Part shown: piece after piece, positions 15,662 to 22,601 of the stretch
How positions within the stretch are numbered: the first letter of the stretch is position 1
Layout: each line of letters starts with the position of its first letter
The notes under the pieces: generated by a model
The model's input: only the letters and a program-made list of their open reading frames with translations
Told to the model about the DNA's origin: nothing
The model's database searches: none
DNA from: an uncultured Pelagibacteraceae bacterium
Lineage (GTDB): Bacteria; Pseudomonadota; Alphaproteobacteria; Pelagibacterales; Pelagibacteraceae
Reading direction: 5' to 3'
Assembly: GCA_902560075.1 (NCBI GenBank)
Contig: CACEKE010000001.1
Span: 62,001-126,000, forward strand
DNA: 64,000 bases
Position numbers and translations under genes: made by a program

Positions 15662-16852
15662 TTACTCTATAATCTTTGTTACTACTCCAGCTCCTACTGT
15701 TCTTCCACCTTCTCTAATTGCAAAATTTAATTTTTCACTCATAGCTATTGGTGTAATTAGTTTCACGGTAAATTTTGCATCATCACCTGGCATTACCATT
15801 TCAGTTCCTGATGGTAATTCTACTTCACCTGTAACATCGGTTGTTCTAAAATAAAATTGTGGTCTATATTTAGTAAAGAAAGGCGTATGTCTGCCACCTT
15901 CCTCTTTTTTGAGAACATAAGCTTGGGCCTCAAATTTAGTATGAGGTGTAACAGAACCTGGTTTTGCAAGAACTTGTCCTCTTTCAACATCTGTTCTTTC
16001 GATACCTCTTAATAGTGCACCAATATTATCTCCTGCTTCACCAGTATCAAGAATTTTTCTAAACATTTCTACACCTGTACAAACGGACTTTTTAGTATCT
16101 CTTATACCAACTATCTCTATTTCTTCTCCTGTTTTCACAACACCTTGTTCTACTCTACCTGTAACAACAGTGCCTCTTCCAGAGATAGAAAAAACATCCT
16201 CAACTGGCATAAGAAAAGGTTTATCTTTTGGTCTATCAGGTTGAGGAATATGTTCGTCAACAGCTTTCATTAATTCCATTATTGCATTTTTTCCAACTGC
16301 TTCATCTTTTCCTTCAACAGCTGCTAAAGCTGAACCTTTAATTATTGGAGTTTTGTCACCTGGAAATTTATATGAATTTAATAAATCTCTAATTTCTTCT
16401 TCAACAAGGTCAATCATTTCTTTATCATCAACTTGATCAACTTTGTTTAAAAAAACAACAATAGCTGGAACCCCAACCTGTCTTGCTAAAAGAATATGCT
16501 CTCTTGTTTGAGGCATCGGGCCATCCGCAGCATTAACAACTAATATTGCTCCATCCATTTGAGCCGCACCTGTTATCATATTTTTTACATAATCAGCATG
16601 ACCAGGGCAATCTACGTGAGCGTAATGTCTTTTTTCAGTTTCATATTCAACATGAGCAGTTGAAATTGTAATTCCTCTCTCTTTTTCCTCTGGCGCTTTG
16701 TCAATTTGGTCATAAGCTACAAATTGCGCTCCTCCAGCCTCAGCTAAAACTTTTGTTATAGCCGCTGTTAAAGTTGTTTTACCATGGTCCACATGCCCAA
16801 TTGTACCTATGTTACAATGTGGTTTACTTCTATTAAATTTTTCCTTCGACAT
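15662..16852 (-). CDS. tuf: Translation elongation factor Tu
   Basis: 396 residues, full length. The P-loop GHVDHGKT is at residues 19-26; DCPGH and NKVD complete the GTP-binding set. The domain II/III segments around [13 protein letters not shown] and GGRHTPF are intact. EF-Tu brings aminoacyl-tRNA to the ribosome. It sits in the trnY-trnG-tuf-trnW-secE order. No second tuf occurs between fusA and rpsJ where many proteobacteria have one, so this may be the only copy. Its codons are the least AT-driven in the window, as expected for a very highly expressed gene. Confidence 0.98.
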
Positions 16853-16888
16853 TACTTTTTTTCCTCACTTTATTTTTTTTGTTTAAAT

Positions 16889-16962
16889 TGGAGCGGGTAA
16901 AGGGAATCGAACCCTTACATCCAGCTTGGAAGGCTAGCGTTCTACCATTGAACTACACCCGC
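16889..16962 (-). tRNA. trnG: tRNA-Gly (anticodon TCC)
   Basis: 74 nt with an encoded CCA. The acceptor stem is GCGGGTG/TACCCGC (with one G-T pair), the D-arm TAGTTCAATGGTAGAA is regular, the anticodon loop is CTTCCAA and the T-arm AGGGTTCGATTCCCT closes. It lies 36 bp upstream of tuf and 38 bp downstream of trnY and is probably cotranscribed with both. Confidence 0.96.
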
Positions 16963-17000
16963 ATCACCCAAGTTTAACACTCCGTTGCAAATCTATTGAA

Positions 17001-17086
<86 letters not shown>

Positions 17087-17135
17087 ATATAGTAGGGGAA
17101 GCGCCCCCTTGTTCAATACATTAAACAACATGGGT

Positions 17136-17163
17136 TTTATATATTTTTATTGTATAATTGCAA
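17136..17163 (-). promoter_or_regulatory. Candidate sigma-70-type promoter for trnY-trnG-tuf
   Basis: On the minus strand TTGCAA (17158-17163) is followed after 16 bp by TATAAA (17136-17141), a fair match to the -35/-10 consensus about 50 bp upstream of trnY. It lies in the only intergenic gap between the divergent rlmB gene and the tRNA/tuf block. The match is visual; in this AT-rich background similar hexamers arise by chance. Confidence 0.35.
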
Positions 17164-17194
17164 TACGTGAAATAGAGGTAAAAAATCATATAAA

Positions 17195-17956
17195 TTGACG
17201 AAAAATATTAAATTAATGCATAATAAATCATCTTTTTTTATAGTTGGTAAACACGCGGTTATAGAGGCTTTAAGGAACCCTAAAAGAAAAGTATTAAGAG
17301 TTTTTTTAACAGAGGAGAGTAAAAAAATAATACACAGAAGTAATCCTAATAAAAACCTCTTATCTAACAACAAGGTCTATTTTAAAACAAAAAAAGAATT
17401 AGATAAGTATTGTTCAAAAGATGATTTACTTCATCAAGGCTTCGTAGCTGAAATCGAACACATTGAAAATATTAATTTGAAAGAATTTTTAAAAAATAAA
17501 CAAAATATAAATTTTGTTTGTCTTGATGGTGTTAGTGATCCAAGAAATATAGGTTCGATTGTAAGAAGCGCGGTATCTTTTAAGATTGATGGATTAATTG
17601 TAAAAGAAAGAAACTTTCCTAAGGACAGCAAGCTGATGTATAAATCAGCAAGTGGGTGCATGGAATATATAAACATATTCCAAGTACCAAACATCAAAAC
17701 TACAATGAAATTTCTTAAAGAAAAAAACTTTTGGGTTTATGGTTTTGACTCAAAAAGTAAAAAGGACTTTATTGACGTAGAATGGAAGGGAAATAATATA
17801 TTACTATTTGGATCAGAAGGAGAAGGTATTAAGAAACATACTGAAAAGTATGCGGATTTTTTAGTTAAAATTGATATGAATGAAAAAATTGAAAGTCTAA
17901 ATATTTCAAATAGTGCTGCAATAGTTTTTCATCATATAAACAAATATCAAAAATAA
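17195..17956 (+). CDS. rlmB: 23S rRNA 2'-O-methyltransferase, TrmH/RlmB family (SPOUT)
   Basis: Up to 253 residues. The N-terminal substrate-binding part opens with FIVGKHAVIEAL. The SPOUT motifs are clear: motif 1 LDGVSDPRNIGSIVRSA (about 112-128), motif 2 LFGSEGEGIKK (about 206-216) and motif 3 SLNISNSAAIVFH (about 234-246). Together they bind SAM through a trefoil knot. The family methylates G2251 of 23S rRNA or tRNA G18; the N-terminal domain favours RlmB. The frame can begin at TTG 17195 or at ATG 17216 (codon 8); the ATG leaves the conserved start intact and is at least as likely. It is divergent from trnY and followed by trnT after 38 bp. Confidence 0.88.
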   Translation: MTKNIKLMHNKSSFFIVGKHAVIEALRNPKRKVLRVFLTEESKKIIHRSNPNKNLLSNNKVYFKTKKELDKYCSKDDLLHQGFVAEIEHIENINLKEFLKNKQNINFVCLDGVSDPRNIGSIVRSAVSFKIDGLIVKERNFPKDSKLMYKSASGCMEYINIFQVPNIKTTMKFLKEKNFWVYGFDSKSKKDFIDVEWKGNNILLFGSEGEGIKKHTEKYADFLVKIDMNEKIESLNISNSAAIVFHHINKYQK

Positions 17957-17994
17957 CTTGATAATATTTATTTTCATATTAAAAAAGATAATAT

Positions 17995-18070
17995 GCCCTT
18001 GTAGCTCAGTTGGTAGAGCAATTGATTTGTAATCAATAGGTCCGCGGTTCGAATCCGTGCGGGGGCACCA
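17995..18070 (+). tRNA. trnT: tRNA-Thr (anticodon TGT), integration target
   Basis: 76 nt with an encoded CCA. The acceptor stem GCCCTTG/CGGGGGC pairs with two G-T pairs. The D-arm is AGCTCAGTTGGTAGAGC, the anticodon loop is TTTGTAA and the T-arm GCGGTTCGAATCCGTGC closes with a G-T pair. Its bases 28-76 are repeated exactly at 19562-19610, which marks it as the attachment site of the small element that follows. The 3' half now present was therefore probably supplied by the element, leaving the tRNA functional. Confidence 0.97.
18022..18070 (+). repeat. attL-type repeat (3' half of trnT)
   Basis: 49 bp identical to 19562-19610. Identity begins at tRNA position 28, one base inside the anticodon stem, and ends exactly with CCA; the flanking bases (A against C on the left, T against C on the right) differ. 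This boundary is the one expected for integrases that cross over in the anticodon loop. Confidence 0.9.
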
Positions 18071-18082
18071 TCATTCAATAAA

Positions 18083-18094
18083 ATCAACGTTAAT
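18083..18094 (+). repeat. 12-bp inverted repeat, left copy (with 19523-19534)
   Basis: ATCAACGTTAAT here is the exact reverse complement of ATTAACGTTGAT at 19523-19534. The copies lie 12 bp and 27 bp inside the two att-type repeats, a symmetric placement that fits recombinase arm-binding or directionality-factor sites. A 12-mer in AT-rich DNA carries limited weight alone. Confidence 0.5.
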
Positions 18095-18134
18095 TTTTTT
18101 CAAAAATTTTAGTTTTTATTAAATTTCTATGTTT

Positions 18135-18151
18135 ATTGTGACTATAGTGTG
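18135..18151 (+). repeat. 17-bp direct repeat, left copy (with 19484-19500)
   Basis: ATTGTGACTATAGTGTG is present exactly at 18135-18151 and 19484-19500, with weaker similarity continuing for about 12 more bases (AATAGATTG against TACAGAATTG). The core ACTATAGT is palindromic. The two copies bracket both cargo genes. The left copy lies 38 bp past the 3' end of the cargo operon. Confidence 0.7.
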
Positions 18152-18189
18152 AATAGATTGTGTATCAATCAAGAAGTCGTTAAAGATTT

Positions 18190-18792
18190 CTATTTTATTT
18201 GTTCTATTTGATTATTTAAATTAATAAATCTGGTGACAGTTGGTCTTAATGGTTTATTTGGATTATTATTTTCAAAATCCCAAGATGTTAGAATTGATAT
18301 CCAACTATTTAAATCTTTTTTAAATTTTTTAGGAAGTTTTTTATATGAAGTGAATTTATTTGAAAAAACTAAAAGATTGCCTTCTTCGTTCCTGTTTTCT
18401 CTAGTATCAATAAAATAATGTATCATTGCACCTAGCACTATTTTCTTTTTTTTATCTATCCATAAGAAACCTTTTTCTGGACAGGATTGTGGTCTGCATC
18501 CAGAAATAATAAAATATTTGTCATCATTTATATTAATTTCATCATGGCTAGCACTGCCATTTCTTAGCGTCCAATAAAAAGTCTCATTAATTGGCTGTTT
18601 ATCCTTGCTCATCCCTAAATAAATATTCAAATCACTTATCTCTTTGTTTAAGGCTTTATCAAAATCAATATGACCAAGTATTAAAGGTGGTGGTTGGTTA
18701 GATTTTAAATACTCAAATAGGTCTTTTGAAAAGCTGACTGAGTTCCAAAATAAAATAACTAAAAGAAAGATTATAAATTTTTTTATTTCCAT
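18190..18792 (-). CDS. Exported Ivy-like (lysozyme-inhibitor-like) protein, element cargo
   Basis: 200 residues with a signal peptide (about 1-22, MEIKKFIIFLLVILFW core, SVSFS end). After the signal, residues 93-126 read YFIISGCRPQSC followed by a hydrophobic strand. This aligns by eye with the Ivy family core in which a Y-x-V-M-S-A-C-K-P-H-D-C loop enters the lysozyme active site. Both loop cysteines (C99, C104), the basic residue and the proline are kept, but the histidine that contacts lysozyme in E. coli Ivy is Q102 here. Ivy proteins are periplasmic inhibitors of C-type lysozyme; the target here is unknown. The protein has a C-terminal extension beyond the Ivy core. Its start overlaps the upstream lipoprotein gene by 10 bp. 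Family assignment is moderate. Confidence 0.55.
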   Translation of the reverse strand: MEIKKFIIFLLVILFWNSVSFSKDLFEYLKSNQPPPLILGHIDFDKALNKEISDLNIYLGMSKDKQPINETFYWTLRNGSASHDEININDDKYFIISGCRPQSCPEKGFLWIDKKKKIVLGAMIHYFIDTRENRNEEGNLLVFSNKFTSYKKLPKKFKKDLNSWISILTSWDFENNNPNKPLRPTVTRFINLNNQIEQIK

Positions 18793-19469
18793 TTTTTATC
18801 AAATAATATCGGGCTTTCTTCTCTTTGTTTTTCACAAATTTGAAAATATTGCTCATAAAATCTTCTCTGTAATTTTATATCTATTTTATTTTTTAGAAAT
18901 TTTTTATTTTCTCTCGATTTTGTATCTAATTTTTCTGCTAAATTTTTATTAAATTCTGCTTCGTTTAAATTTGATAACTCTGTTTCATACATTAAAATCA
19001 ACGATCTATGAAAAGATAGGAGATTTTCTAACCTTTTCTTTGTTTTATCATAATCTTCAAAAAAATCTGATTTAATTCTTTTTGAAAATCTTTCACTTTC
19101 TGTATCTTTTGCCCATTCAACAGCTTCGTTATAACTCCACCATCTAGTTCTCATATACTTTAAATTATAATTCAATTTATTTATAATATCTATGTTTTCT
19201 GATTTAATATTATAAAATTGATCTTTGATTTCATTTAGATAACTTAATTCTTTATGTATAATTTGAGCTATAACTTTATCTCTTAATAAAAAACCTGACT
19301 TTTTTTTTTTAATACTGAAATAAGTATTATTCAGCTCATATTCAAATATTTTTTTTTTAAATAAACTTTCAGCTTTGCTATCTGCACATTTTTCAATTTT
19401 TTTTGCTGTTCTATCTACTTGATCACAACTAAATAATAAAAATACAAAAAATATTAGAAAATATTTCAT
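18783..19469 (-). CDS. Lipoprotein of unknown function, element cargo
   Basis: 228 residues. The N-terminus MKYFLIFFVFLLFSC is a lipoprotein signal with lipobox L-F-S-C15 followed by D16, the aspartate that in enterobacteria favours inner-membrane retention. The rest is highly charged and probably helical (KKIEKCADSKAESLFKKK, KTKKRLENLLSFHRSLILMYETEL), ending in a lysine/tryptophan tail. I do not recognise a domain. It is the first gene of the two-gene cargo operon, its start is 14 bp from the right-hand 17-bp repeat, and it overlaps the Ivy-like gene by 10 bp. The two products are therefore likely to act together in the cell envelope. Confidence 0.7.
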   Translation of the reverse strand: MKYFLIFFVFLLFSCDQVDRTAKKIEKCADSKAESLFKKKIFEYELNNTYFSIKKKKSGFLLRDKVIAQIIHKELSYLNEIKDQFYNIKSENIDIINKLNYNLKYMRTRWWSYNEAVEWAKDTESERFSKRIKSDFFEDYDKTKKRLENLLSFHRSLILMYETELSNLNEAEFNKNLAEKLDTKSRENKKFLKNKIDIKLQRRFYEQYFQICEKQREESPILFDKKWK

Positions 19470-19483
19470 AAGAAAACTTTATC

Positions 19484-19500
19484 ATTGTGACTATAGTGTG
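19484..19500 (+). repeat. 17-bp direct repeat, right copy; possible cargo promoter
   Basis: Exact copy of 18135-18151. On the minus strand it reads CACACTATAGTCACAAT and ends 14 bp before the lipoprotein start codon, so its TATAGT could serve as a -10 box for a nearly leaderless message. Recombination between the two copies would remove both cargo genes and leave the att-type ends. Confidence 0.55.
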
Positions 19501-19522
19501 TACAGAATTGAGATAACTTTTA

Positions 19523-19534
19523 ATTAACGTTGAT
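19523..19534 (-). repeat. 12-bp inverted repeat, right copy
   Basis: ATTAACGTTGAT, the exact reverse complement of 18083-18094, located 27 bp inside the right att-type repeat. See the left copy for interpretation. Confidence 0.5.
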
Positions 19535-19561
19535 AGTATTTATCTTTTTGAGTTTAGATTC

Positions 19562-19610
19562 TTGATTTGTAATCAATAGGTCCGCGGTTCGAATCCGTGC
19601 GGGGGCACCA
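19562..19610 (+). repeat. attR-type repeat (orphan trnT 3' half)
   Basis: 49 bp identical to the 3' part of trnT. No 5' half, D-arm or acceptor 5' strand precedes it, so it cannot fold as a tRNA. The next gene to the right (19619-20656) ends 8 bp beyond it, so before integration that gene's stop codon lay 8 bp from the tRNA CCA. Confidence 0.9.
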
Positions 19611-19618
19611 CTAAAAAA

Positions 19619-20656
19619 TTATTCTAAAGCTTTTCCAACAATTGTTGCAGAACCTTCTAATCTCTCTATAGACTCAATATAAACCTGTGTTTGACTTTTA
19701 CCACCAAGTGGTGCCATTGTGCCTGTACCGGCTTCAAGGTCATGTGCACCCTCAATAATGATCTGTCCATTTCCTGTTGATCCAGAAGCATCAACAGTTG
19801 TAAATTTCCCGTAGAAAAACAATCTTTTATCTGCATCAGGGTTATTTGTGTCATGGTTATACCAGTCCATTAACTCTTGTTTGCTTTTACAACCAGTATC
19901 ACAAGTATAATTAGCTGCAAGTTCAGTTGGTGAAATTTGCATTGATGAATTTACATCTACAAATTCGTCGAAGTCTGTGTTTCCATCTGACTTTAAACCT
20001 CTAACCGTAGATGCTACAACTGGTAGAGATGTTATTCCTGCTGTTCCGGTGTTCCATTCATGTTGAACTTGTGATGCACCTTTTAAAGTTATTCTTGTGT
20101 ACATATCTGCACTCATTTCTTTTTTGTTAAAGTTAACATAAACTTTTCCTCTTCCCTCTTGAACTGCGTCTGCAAATACATCTGAAGTAGATGGTTTATT
20201 ATAAGTTAATCCATTAGATCCTGTCTCAACTCTTTCTAATGTAAACCAACCAGAGTCATAAACAACTACATCCTGATCTAATGTCATTACATAATCATGA
20301 TCTTTTTCTTCTATGTTATCTGTCATTTTTTCCATTGCTTTAGCAATTTCTTTAGAGTCTGATGATGAAGAATTTGATAAAGCTGATAAAGCACCCTCGT
20401 CGACTTTTAAATCTAATTTTTCAGCATTTTCTTTTATATCTTGTTTTAAATTTGTTGAATTTATTAAATTAGATGTAACATTTTGAGAGTTGTTTATAAC
20501 ATTGCTTGAATTAACTACGGAATGACTCATTGAGCTGGACATTTGATTTACTATGTTTGTTGTAGCGGGAGTTGGTGTCGATACAACAGCATAAGAATAA
20601 CTAAAATAAGTAATTATAAATAAAGTTGATTTGATTATAGTTTTAAAATTTTTCAT
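19619..20656 (-). CDS. Exported protein of unknown function, third gene of the envelope operon
   Basis: 345 residues with a signal peptide (about 1-23, ending SYSYA). A low-complexity serine/asparagine-rich segment follows (about 30-70, repeated SSxVINNSQNVTSN-like text), then a short predicted helix (DSKEIAKAMEKMTDNI), and from about residue 115 a beta-rich domain with many V/T/G strands and one cysteine pair (YTCDTGCKS). I recognise no family. The start abuts the stop of the FecR-domain gene, so it is the last gene of a three-gene operon. An exported, beta-rich, Ser/Asn-linker protein encoded with an outer-membrane barrel is a plausible surface or cargo protein; this is inference. Confidence 0.75.
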   Translation of the reverse strand: MKNFKTIIKSTLFIITYFSYSYAVVSTPTPATTNIVNQMSSSMSHSVVNSSNVINNSQNVTSNLINSTNLKQDIKENAEKLDLKVDEGALSALSNSSSSDSKEIAKAMEKMTDNIEEKDHDYVMTLDQDVVVYDSGWFTLERVETGSNGLTYNKPSTSDVFADAVQEGRGKVYVNFNKKEMSADMYTRITLKGASQVQHEWNTGTAGITSLPVVASTVRGLKSDGNTDFDEFVDVNSSMQISPTELAANYTCDTGCKSKQELMDWYNHDTNNPDADKRLFFYGKFTTVDASGSTGNGQIIIEGAHDLEAGTGTMAPLGGKSQTQVYIESIERLEGSATIVGKALE

Positions 20657-21226
20657 TTAATTTTTTACCATTGCTTGAAAACCAGGTTTAGTTATATCAG
20701 TCATATTTATTCCATCTGAAAGTTGAACATTGCCAGGGATCATTCCTAAAGTATTGTCAGGTCCCGGGCCTAATAATAAAACTGTACTTTCTTTATCTGA
20801 ATTTGAAGATACAAGAAATTCTGTTCCTCTTGCGCCTAATGTTCCAGCTGGCATTTTAACCTCTAGGTTATCTGGATTTTTCTTGCTGATTTTTCCAGTA
20901 ATAAACTTAACTGTTCCTGACTTTATATTTGTGACAAAATTTCCATCATTAGTTTTTGGGTCATAAACAAAATCATCTATTGTTAATTCAGTATTTTCTC
21001 CAACTGTCATTACTGTTTCATCTAAAAATAATATCTGAGCATTAGATTTTGACTTTACAAATATTGTATCGCCAAAAAATACTTTGGAACCGTTTATTAA
21101 TTTTTCATTTTTTTGATTGTTTATATCTCCAACGGCAACCCCAATCACACCTATGAATTCACTACTAATAGATTTAGATATAAAGCTTAAAAAAATAAAA
21201 ATTGTTAATAAAAATTTTTTATTCAT
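20657..21226 (-). CDS. FecR-domain periplasmic protein
   Basis: 189 residues with a signal peptide (about 1-21). The FecR domain is recognisable: an N-terminal FIGVIGVAVGDI strand, a GSKVFFGDTIFVKSKSNAQILFLDETVMTVGENTELTIDDF core (about 46-86), and a later KMPAGTLGARGTEFLV segment (about 123-138). Stand-alone FecR domains without the TonB-signalling transmembrane helix are common in exported proteins next to outer-membrane or autotransporter-like genes. There is no sigma factor or FecA-like receptor here, so iron signalling is not supported. Its start overlaps the upstream TPR-barrel gene by 8 bp and its stop abuts the next gene. Confidence 0.82.
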   Translation of the reverse strand: MNKKFLLTIFIFLSFISKSISSEFIGVIGVAVGDINNQKNEKLINGSKVFFGDTIFVKSKSNAQILFLDETVMTVGENTELTIDDFVYDPKTNDGNFVTNIKSGTVKFITGKISKKNPDNLEVKMPAGTLGARGTEFLVSSNSDKESTVLLLGPGPDNTLGMIPGNVQLSDGINMTDITKPGFQAMVKN

Positions 21227-22601
21227 TAAAATTTACTCTTTTTGTTATCCCTATAGTTTTAAATGCTCTTTTAATTTCGTAGTTTGGTAAGCTTGAGTTT
21301 ATATTAGATTCCCTAAAACTTATAGTATAAAAAAATGTATTATCTTTATTTATCTTTCGTAAAAAAGGTAATATTTGATTTATATCACCTCTCAAAGAAA
21401 TATTTGTTACTAAACTTCTGTCATTTCTATAACGCAACATAGATATAGCATTATTTTTAGCTTGATAAGCATTATATAAATAAGTTGCTGATGCTGATAA
21501 AGTTCCAAATGAAAAAATTCTAGAGGCTCGAAAATTTACACCATTAGATTCGTAAGTATGAAATTCTTTTGCATGATCTGTTTTGCCATATATTAATTTT
21601 GTACTTATTTGTGTTCTATTAGATATGTTATGATTTAGTCTGATTGATGCAGAGTAAACCTCATTATTATTGTTATCACCTGCCTCTTTAAACAATTGAA
21701 TACCTGCTACTACAGGATTTGGTCTTGAATGATATCTTGAGTCTGAATAGCTCAAAGCATAATTTAAATTAAATTTATCATTAAATATATATGTATTATT
21801 AATTCCTACCCCTTTTACCTGATAATCCTCTTGTCTTCTGTAGTTTGGATTATTGAAATAAATATATGGGGAAAAATAATGATTTTTGTAAGCTTTAAAA
21901 TAACTTATTGAGCTTGAATATATATCACTCTCACCTTTGTGTTTTTTGTTGTTGGTATTAAAAGTTGATCCAAGATTTAAATACAAAGAAGAAGTTTGAT
22001 CTAAAATTCTTCCTATAGTAAGTGAAGTACCCCTTGTGTAAGTTTTATCGTATTCCATAGTGCTTTTGTGATGTCCGCTATCATTTGCTGTAAAGGGCAA
22101 TAATGTTTCATTATCGTCATTATCAACAGCTAAAGTTTTTCCAGATTTAGTTCTGCCGCTTATATTATCCTCTTCAGTTCCTGAGTAGGTAAAATCCATG
22201 TATGCAAACCATTTTTTTGGCTTTTCTTCCTCAAATTTTTCATTAGTTAACAACTCAGCAATTAATCTCCTCGTCTCATCAGAAGTATTGGGATCGTTAA
22301 GCATAGTGCTAACCATCAAATCAACTTTTACTTTTGAGTCCATTTTTAACAAAATAGATAAAAGATATAATTTAATATCTGCATTTTTTGGGTAAAGCAT
22401 ACTTAGTCTTTCTAATGTTGCTATTGTTGATTTAATATTTCCAGATTTTTCTTGCTGCTTTGCGTAATTTAAATTCAATTCTAAATCTGTTGGATTATCT
22501 AATATTTCTTTATATGTAATAATTGAAGACATAGCTTTTGAATTAAAATTTAATAATAAAGTGATAATTAAACTTAAAAGCTTAGCATTTTTTATATTCA
22601 T
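21219..22601 (-). CDS. TPR plus outer-membrane beta-barrel protein
   Basis: 460 residues: a signal peptide (about 1-23); a helical region with TPR character (LELNLNYAKQQEKSGNIKSTIATLERLSMLYPKNADIKLYLL, about 38-80); then from about residue 125 to the end alternating aromatic/hydrophobic strands separated by polar turns (WFAYMDFTYSGT, SLYLNLGSTFN, HYFSPYIYFNN), typical of an outer-membrane barrel. The N-terminal TPR plus C-terminal barrel order resembles the SLAM/DUF560 class, which moves proteins across the outer membrane. Whether this is a true member cannot be decided by eye. It is the first gene of the operon that continues with the FecR-domain protein and the unknown exported protein. Confidence 0.7.
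   Translation of the reverse strand: MNIKNAKLLSLIITLLLNFNSKAMSSIITYKEILDNPTDLELNLNYAKQQEKSGNIKSTIATLERLSMLYPKNADIKLYLLSILLKMDSKVKVDLMVSTMLNDPNTSDETRRLIAELLTNEKFEEEKPKKWFAYMDFTYSGTEEDNISGRTKSGKTLAVDNDDNETLLPFTANDSGHHKSTMEYDKTYTRGTSLTIGRILDQTSSLYLNLGSTFNTNNKKHKGESDIYSSSISYFKAYKNHYFSPYIYFNNPNYRRQEDYQVKGVGINNTYIFNDKFNLNYALSYSDSRYHSRPNPVVAGIQLFKEAGDNNNNEVYSASIRLNHNISNRTQISTKLIYGKTDHAKEFHTYESNGVNFRASRIFSFGTLSASATYLYNAYQAKNNAISMLRYRNDRSLVTNISLRGDINQILPFLRKINKDNTFFYTISFRESNINSSLPNYEIKRAFKTIGITKRVNFNE

Follow-up and report, generated by a model that had tools for sequence, protein, structure and literature searches.

In the 64,000-nucleotide stretch of an uncultured Pelagibacteraceae genome analysed here (hereafter the window; contig CACEKE010000001.1), the gene trnT carries a precise insertion at 18071-19610, in which two cargo genes lie between putative integrase arms and no recombinase was found. 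This element is one member of a large SAR11 family that combines one end architecture with very diverse cargo. From the sequence comparisons below, we consider the family members to be probably non-autonomous cassettes bearing a tyrosine-integrase attP, mobilized in trans by satellite or phage integrases of a matching arm class. An earlier note, made from the window sequence alone, had described a miniature element without recombinase in trnT; its observation was confirmed and its interpretation supported.

Anatomy of the trnT element

ARAGORN called a single tRNA-Thr(TGT), at 17995-18070 on the plus strand. As the earlier note had stated, the gene is duplicated exactly from the anticodon stem to CCA: the direct repeat TTGATTTGTAATCAATAGG...GGGGGCACCA at 18022-18070 recurs at 19562-19610 with 49 of 49 bases identical. 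The second copy was not called as a tRNA and is therefore a 3' fragment beginning in the anticodon stem. The 1491 bp between the repeats (18071-19561) hold two main open reading frames (ORFs), overlapping and on the minus strand, of 228 and 200 aa. The absence of an integrase, also claimed in the note, held in a search of the element's six-frame segments of at least 30 aa with a profile built from 19 tyrosine integrases. Likewise, the window's own genome (90% complete) gave no PF00589 match.

Inside the element ends, a 23-bp direct repeat (ATTGTGACTATAGTGTG, 91% identity) starts at 18135 and 19484, and a 19-nt inverted pair (89%) at 18077 and 19522 contains ATCAACGTTAATT and AATTAACGTTGAT. With arm-type repeats on both sides of a core, the layout of the ends is that predicted for a tyrosine-integrase attP split by integration. 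The features are as follows (L numbers denote loci and G numbers genomes).

17995-18070, plus strand: trnT, tRNA-Thr(TGT), the intact integration target, whose final 49 bases form the attL core (ARAGORN; 49-bp repeat)
18022-18070, plus strand: attL core, from the anticodon stem-loop ATTGA-TTTGTAA-TCAAT through CCA (exact repeat; mismatch map of 58 elements)
18071-18182: conserved left cassette end, TCATTCAATAAAATCAACGTTAATT ... AATCAAGAAGTCG, common to other trnT elements
18083-18095: ATCAACGTTAATT, inverted partner of AATTAACGTTGAT at 19522-19534
18135-18157: left arm-type direct repeat
18190-18792, minus strand: cargo gene 2, 200 aa, signal-like N-terminus; homologue in L293_e1
18783-19469, minus strand: cargo gene 1, 228 aa, lipoprotein-like N-terminus MKYFLIFFVFLLFSC; start 92-93 bp from the right core
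19484-19506: right arm-type direct repeat; start 77 bp before the right core (19485)
19522-19534: AATTAACGTTGAT, inverted partner of ATCAACGTTAATT at 18083-18095
19562-19610, plus strand: attR core, a trnT 3' fragment and the element end (49-bp repeat; empty-site junction 18070/19611)
18071-19610: complete insertion of 1540 bp, made up of 1491 bp and one copy of the core; not present in L350 or L349

Neither cargo protein had a Pfam family above cut-off, and their earlier designation as envelope cargo is a tentative one, based only on signal-like N-termini. A promoter scan of 17900-19700 was uninformative (13 sites against 12.0 expected, 0 terminators).

Empty sites define a precise insertion

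The gene beside the right junction (19619-20656) has counterparts of 97% identity in G261 and in G327. Both genomes have an intact trnT that leads without a gap into CTAAAAAATTATTC, the flank that begins at 19611 in the window; this is the empty site that the earlier note had predicted. In G327, window 16501-18070 aligned to L350:7981-9550 (91.6%) and window 19562-21500 to L350:9502-11437 (94.2%). These alignments are contiguous and their overlap is exactly the 49-bp repeat. G261 has extra unaligned DNA between the rlmB-like gene and trnT, and in G176 cassette ends of the same family stand ahead of its 73% homologue of the 19619-20656 gene.

The precise empty site in G327 excludes chance and artefact as sources of the window repeat. 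An assembly artefact or a chance tRNA duplication, for which no support was found, is refuted further by the recurrence of the same left junction in 77 stretches of separate assemblies, and we regard its probability as negligible. The two outcomes that the note had named as fatal to its proposal, an artefactual second repeat and a locus fixed in all relatives, are contradicted by these stretches and by the precise empty sites.

The right flank itself is an operon (19619-22601) coding for a 345-aa protein, a FecR-domain protein and a DUF2860-like protein (below cut-off). It is patchy: among 399 genomes of the genus, 22 have the 345-aa protein (19619-20656), and the window's own is one of them.

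A family of cassettes at trnT of SAR11

When 100 relatives, 60 of them from the same genus, were searched with the window element, its two ends matched at many trnT loci and its middle seldom. The trnT loci were fetched for 40 of the 60 same-genus relatives, the other 20 having no core match listed, and the left end was present in 22 of these 40. By eye, trnT in L053, L071, L074 and L075, among others, is followed directly by host sequence, the same that lies past the last core copy in L061 and L062. In the named genome collection, 77 stretches contain the exact 25-bp left junction; their titles all read Pelagibacteraceae, Pelagibacterales or Pelagibacter, and single-cell genomes and the isolate HTCC9565 are among them. 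HTCC9565 has a trnT-type array with the cassette left end and only one core copy in the stretch examined.

Merging elements that were identical over an interior stretch, and excluding sister-family loci from the counts, gave 72 distinct elements at trnT of the genus. We classed 58 of them as type A, defined by the left end, a right arm 76-78 bp from the core and both core copies; 14 fell outside this filter. The spacing is itself a filter criterion; in the unfiltered set, 58 of the 60 elements with a left end and two cores had the right arm at 76-78 bp (range searched, 60-99 bp), the two exceptions being L241_e1 and L236_e1. Type A elements measure 411-3315 bp (median 1625) and hold 1-5 genes, and their 125 ORFs of at least 70 aa all lie on one strand. 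No integrase was found in the 1130 six-frame segments of the 58 elements. Seven loci carry at least two complete type A cassettes.

Other trnT elements have other ends. Those termed type B (the first elements of L045 and L047, L043_e1, and L275 of HTCC9565) measure 2.5-6.1 kb; no integrase was found in them, and L045_e1 codes for an MmeI-type restriction-modification protein. A 7.7-kb trnT element, L048_e1 (G038:C72), has its own integrase (Arm-DNA-bind_3 + Phage_integrase) and codes for a 768-aa protein, primase-like by eye. We rejected it as a helper of type B: the end similarity of L045_e1 and L047_e1 stayed within that of shuffles, and only the left end of L043_e1 rose above it. In another family of the same order (L044, L093, L094 and L096), trnT mini-segments of 0.4-0.8 kb have ends resembling the attP flanks of viral contigs L165, L180, L183, L185 and L194, which carry the trnT core without a tRNA gene. 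These mini-segments were discarded as a second proof of helper mimicry, with a phage-like end in 4 of 10 tested and on both sides in one.

Arm repeats and the region of exchange

The 58 type A elements have 37 distinct right-arm sequences. Their phase is constant, and 53 elements have the arm 77 bp from the core. Left and right arms of the same element agree with each other: at both 12 and 18 bp, 0 of 20000 permutations reached the observed agreement, in a set of 17 elements and in the 37 elements with distinct right arms alike.

When the two core copies were compared in each of the 58 elements, 17 had a mismatch at position 1 and 29 at position 2. No single position from 3 to 31 had more than 2 mismatches; position 32 had 8, and later positions had up to 4 each. 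Exchange is most likely to take place within positions 3-31; this interval contains the anticodon loop, bordered by ATTGA and TCAAT. The map is compatible with the crossover in the anticodon loop that the earlier note had assumed.

These data bear on whether cassettes, once inserted, are now exchanged only by homologous recombination through conserved flanks, shared ends and trnT, with no integrase. The conserved ends and shared cargo would supply the homology, and frequent recombination has been reported for SAR11 (PMC7542561). Nevertheless, such exchange leaves unexplained the in-phase arms at a fixed distance, the left-right agreement and the existence of integrase-bearing elements with the same core and arms. 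We consider it very unlikely as the sole process; it may act in addition.

Diverse cargo within a uniform end architecture

The earlier note had suggested looking for the same ends with other cargo, and the family provides this amply: the 125 type A genes form 91 protein clusters, 69 of them singletons. A Pfam scan covered 25 of the 125 genes (the window's two and 23 others) and 7 proteins of other trnT elements. Families above cut-off in type A were Mrr_N/Mrr_cat, MrcB_N/HNH, DUF4268, DUF6994, Exo_endo_phos, N_methyl (prepilin-like), DUF4184 and DUF3764; most remaining scanned type A proteins had no Pfam family. Outside the type A filter, L049_e1 encodes a polysaccharide lyase and L046_e2 an autotransporter. 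Among 10 proteins submitted to PADLOC, 3 gave a clear match, 2 a weak one and 5 none, window gene 1 being among the last. The clear matches were the Mrr-type protein (mREase_IV/PDC-S02), the DUF4268 protein (PDC-S11) and a protein of L061 (PDC-M72B).

A given cargo can recur between differing arms: DUF6994 is found in six elements with six right arms, and L293_e1 has homologues of both window genes between different arms. Window gene 2 matched in 4 of 399 genomes, its own included, and closely only in G210 (89%). DUF6994 is present in 9 of 399 genomes and has a trnT core within 1.5 kb at 6 loci. A MKKLLGIVVLGLL-like leader is shared by 21 of the 125 type A genes; near-identical from gene to gene (MKKLLGIVVLGLLLSG...), it stands ahead of otherwise unrelated proteins, as if signal peptides had been shuffled onto cargo. 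The distance from the right core to the start of gene 1 is 92 or 93 bp in 33 of the 58 elements and between 80 and 100 bp in 46.

Such regularity argues against the view that the elements are dead remnants, leftovers of satellites or prophages after deletion of int, with ends that persist by descent and no mobilization in trans. A truncated integrase is indeed kept in L236_e1, and the phage-attP-like ends of the sister-family mini-segments, present in 4 of 10 and on both sides in one, are as expected of decayed prophages. In type A elements, by contrast, the geometry is uniform (58 of 60), the 125 genes share one orientation, no integrase remnant was found in any of the 58, and gene 1 starts 92-93 bp from the core in 33 of them. 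In addition, arms agree across an element and cargo recurs with different arms. Random deletion would not leave features of this kind. We therefore judge an origin as inert remnants to be unlikely.

Two further loci with DUF6994 genes were noted. In G321:C15 (L353 4336-6630), the groEL 3' end and terminator region is present in two copies ~2.2 kb apart, which enclose a DUF6994 gene and a gene for a 418-aa protein. One end of this segment contains the 11-bp direct repeat AAGTTCATTGC, and the segment may represent a comparable insertion, lacking an integrase, outside tRNA genes. As a second hotspot the groEL end was rejected: 13 of 101 sampled genomes matched, once each, with no second case, and G321, the source of the repeat, was not among the matches listed for that sample. 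In L354 (G133:C4), the hairpin-like block GGGGCACCTGGCAACAGAACGCCCC occurs twice, at ~6340 and ~6800, 452 bp apart, near a DUF6994 gene.

Candidate helper integrases

The exact core was found in two viral stretches, L037, where it belongs to an intact tRNA gene, and L038. In L038 (8916 bp), no tRNA gene accompanies the trnT core, which is flanked by an arm on either side; an adjacent gene codes for a 328-aa integrase and starts ~100 bp from the core, near the position of cassette gene 1. Three of its 8 proteins matched PHROGs, namely the integrase, a DNA polymerase/primase and a terminase small subunit. The contig is satellite-like and may be incomplete; it lacks a terminal repeat indicative of circularity. 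Its arm TTGCGGACATAGTGCGGACAGATA matches L298_e1 at 22/24 positions on the left and 21/24 on the right, and L046_e1 at 21/24, whereas 228 interior windows used as a chance control reached at most 14/24. With a profile of 37 arms (GCGGAC class included), L038 scored 22.0 and the best of 35 unrelated viral loci (325 kb) 16.1. Over 36 viral loci, an intact tRNA-Thr was present in 27 and absent from 9.

Relatives of this integrase occur within the genus, in 21 of 399 genomes, and we fetched 20 of these 21 loci (G286 was left out). A 6.4-kb satellite-like element in tRNA-Asn of a Pelagibacter genome (L219 7353-13790; G292:C3) has an integrase 76% identical to that of L038 and arm scores of 21.9 and 20.8 at its two ends. 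L220, cut by the contig end, has a 73% identical integrase next to a perfect copy of the trnT core. In L236, the left end is of type A, the right end is of helper type and a truncated, 78-aa integrase remnant is present; the next element in its array has arms of the same GTGG class. We interpret this apparent hybrid as linking the helpers to the cassettes. Where the end is of helper type (L038, L220 and L236), the arm lies 87-88 bp from the core.

A host recombinase of the Xer type could be considered as the cassette mover, given that PF00589 matched in 44 of 61 genus genomes (the window's own included among the 61), mostly in a single ~325-aa protein. Yet the window's own genome (90% complete) is one of those with no match, and the core is trnT. 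Xer recombinases act at dif sites, where arm repeats are not known to be required. We regard this explanation as highly improbable.

Several other scans gave no further helper candidate. A viral scan for TTGTGACTATAGTGTG returned 3 stretches on 2 contigs with no tRNA, and one for the left-end 16-mer AATAAAATCAACGTTA returned 35 stretches with, by eye, no cassette context; both were taken as chance. A helper-promoter pattern returned L038 again and contig L316, with no integrase seen in the ORF list of the latter. Against annotated phage records, the 49-bp core gave 40 matches, each of 80-90% identity. The L038 integrase had 324 matches there, all below 60% identity (best among the matches listed, 37%), and the left end had 211, mostly tRNA-Thr genes among the 30 listed.

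A model for mobilization in trans

In the model that we favour, the ends of an excised cassette would rejoin in a circle as attP, in the order right arm, trnT core, left arm. A tyrosine integrase of a co-resident satellite or phage (the family of L038, L219, L220 and L236) would bind the arm repeats and the anticodon-stem core and insert the circle into trnT, leaving the target intact. Since trnT stays intact, cassettes could stack in tandem. The arm class would set compatibility, with different classes answering to different helper integrases. The start of cargo gene 1, close to that of the helper int, suggests a probable origin of cassettes from elements whose int was lost or replaced, with cargo now being exchanged among them.

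Several observations weigh against this model. Of the 20 L038-like integrase loci, only 2 lie beside trnT; the contig end truncates one of these, and the other is a remnant. The arms of L220 score just 7.1, within background. An arm-matched, integrase-bearing element was found for the GCGGAC class (L038) and none for the class of the window, for which no integrase with such arms (TTGTGAC...GTGTA) was found at a trnT core. DUF6994 lies away from trnT in 3 of its 9 genomes, with no core in wider stretches. As to the arms, 15 of 20000 permutations reached the observed agreement at 9 bp in the set of 17, and arm-less end pieces also lean slightly to agreement (428/20000). Because arm classes overlap, the left and right arms of one element match each other best, alone or in a tie, in only 9 of 37 cases at 12 bp and 6 of 37 at 18 bp. 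Common descent of whole end pairs can explain part of the agreement. The passage of cargo from one arm class to another points to some reason for the arm pair to stay together.

The proposal of the earlier note that the recombinase is encoded elsewhere thus stands in part: none was found in the element, and L038 unites core, arms and integrase, but a helper of the window's class did not emerge.

A broader reading, which we advance tentatively as a possibility less secure than the model itself, is an integron-like cassette economy in SAR11 without a resident integrase, in which an arm code sets which satellite or phage integrase inserts or lifts which cassette, some cassettes being anti-phage. 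If true, the mobile gene pool would be partitioned by recombinase specificity, and cassettes would hitchhike on satellites, which in turn hitchhike on phages. Restriction-like and candidate defence cargo (Mrr, MrcB/HNH, DUF4268 = PDC-S11) may let SAR11 swap phage defences within a streamlined genome. The proposed route, which is concrete, widespread and testable, has a defined att site and an arm code, and it comes with a candidate helper integrase and the isolate HTCC9565.

Comparison with known systems

The elements have the features expected of a tyrosine-integrase type: a repeat of the tRNA 3' end with an empty site, sites in the core stem and putative arms on both sides. We recognised no description of such integrase-less trnT elements in SAR11 among the papers listed by searches of open-access literature. 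The note's view of an undescribed SAR11 element holds to that extent; what it presented as a single oddity is a widespread family.

Several known systems share part of this organization; the comparisons refer to the portions of the cited papers available to us. Phage satellites (phage-inducible chromosomal islands, PICI, and phage-inducible chromosomal minimalist islands, PICMI; PMC10803314) and tycheposons (PMC10872708) likewise integrate site-specifically at tRNA genes of marine bacteria. Satellites have their own integrase, unlike the cassettes, and tycheposons are given as 4-200 kbp with a tyrosine recombinase (PMC10872708), against 411-3315 bp and no recombinase found here. The earlier note had drawn a likeness to satellites or tycheposons; the element, encoding no recombinase, is strictly neither, and the proposed helper L038 is satellite-like. 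The family suggests a niche beneath satellites, of elements pared to attachment arms and cargo.

Cis-mobilizable elements (CIMEs; PMC5704250) keep attL and attR, lack integration genes and accrete in tandem at one site, and the cassettes share all three traits. CIMEs are decayed integrative and conjugative or integrative and mobilizable elements (ICEs/IMEs) in tandem with a functional element, whereas the cassettes are a uniform 0.4-3.3 kb with no ICE link. As to such an origin, L236_e1 has an integrase remnant, and the Pfam scan, which covered 25 of the 125 type A genes, revealed no conjugation gene. Dehalococcoides ssrA islands (PMC3146451) are also in tandem at one RNA gene with short-repeat boundaries, and an integration module is present in only 16 of 31. 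They differ in using serine recombinases and in being far larger (~12 kb with vcrABC), and the available text describes no arm-class matching. Clusters of attC sites lacking integron-integrases (CALINs) and miniature inverted-repeat transposable elements (MITEs), described as hitchers (PMC11389934), resemble the cassettes in having no recombinase of their own and moving by one encoded elsewhere. Their sites are different: attC in CALINs, and transposon inverted repeats, with no genes, in MITEs, against a tRNA core and tyrosine-integrase arms.

Another parallel is provided by the tRNA-targeted cassettes of additive flexible genomic islands in Actinomarinales (PMC7771536) and Methylophilaceae (PMC10872708), which are small, lie at a tRNA, have direct repeats of the tRNA end and occur in streamlined aquatic hosts. 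The SAR11 elements share this cassette form, in another host and at another tRNA. Cassettes with tRNA repeats are thus already published for other hosts; to those accounts, which in the parts available do not treat end anatomy, arm repeats or a recombinase, the SAR11 elements add an end anatomy and a candidate link to helper integrases.

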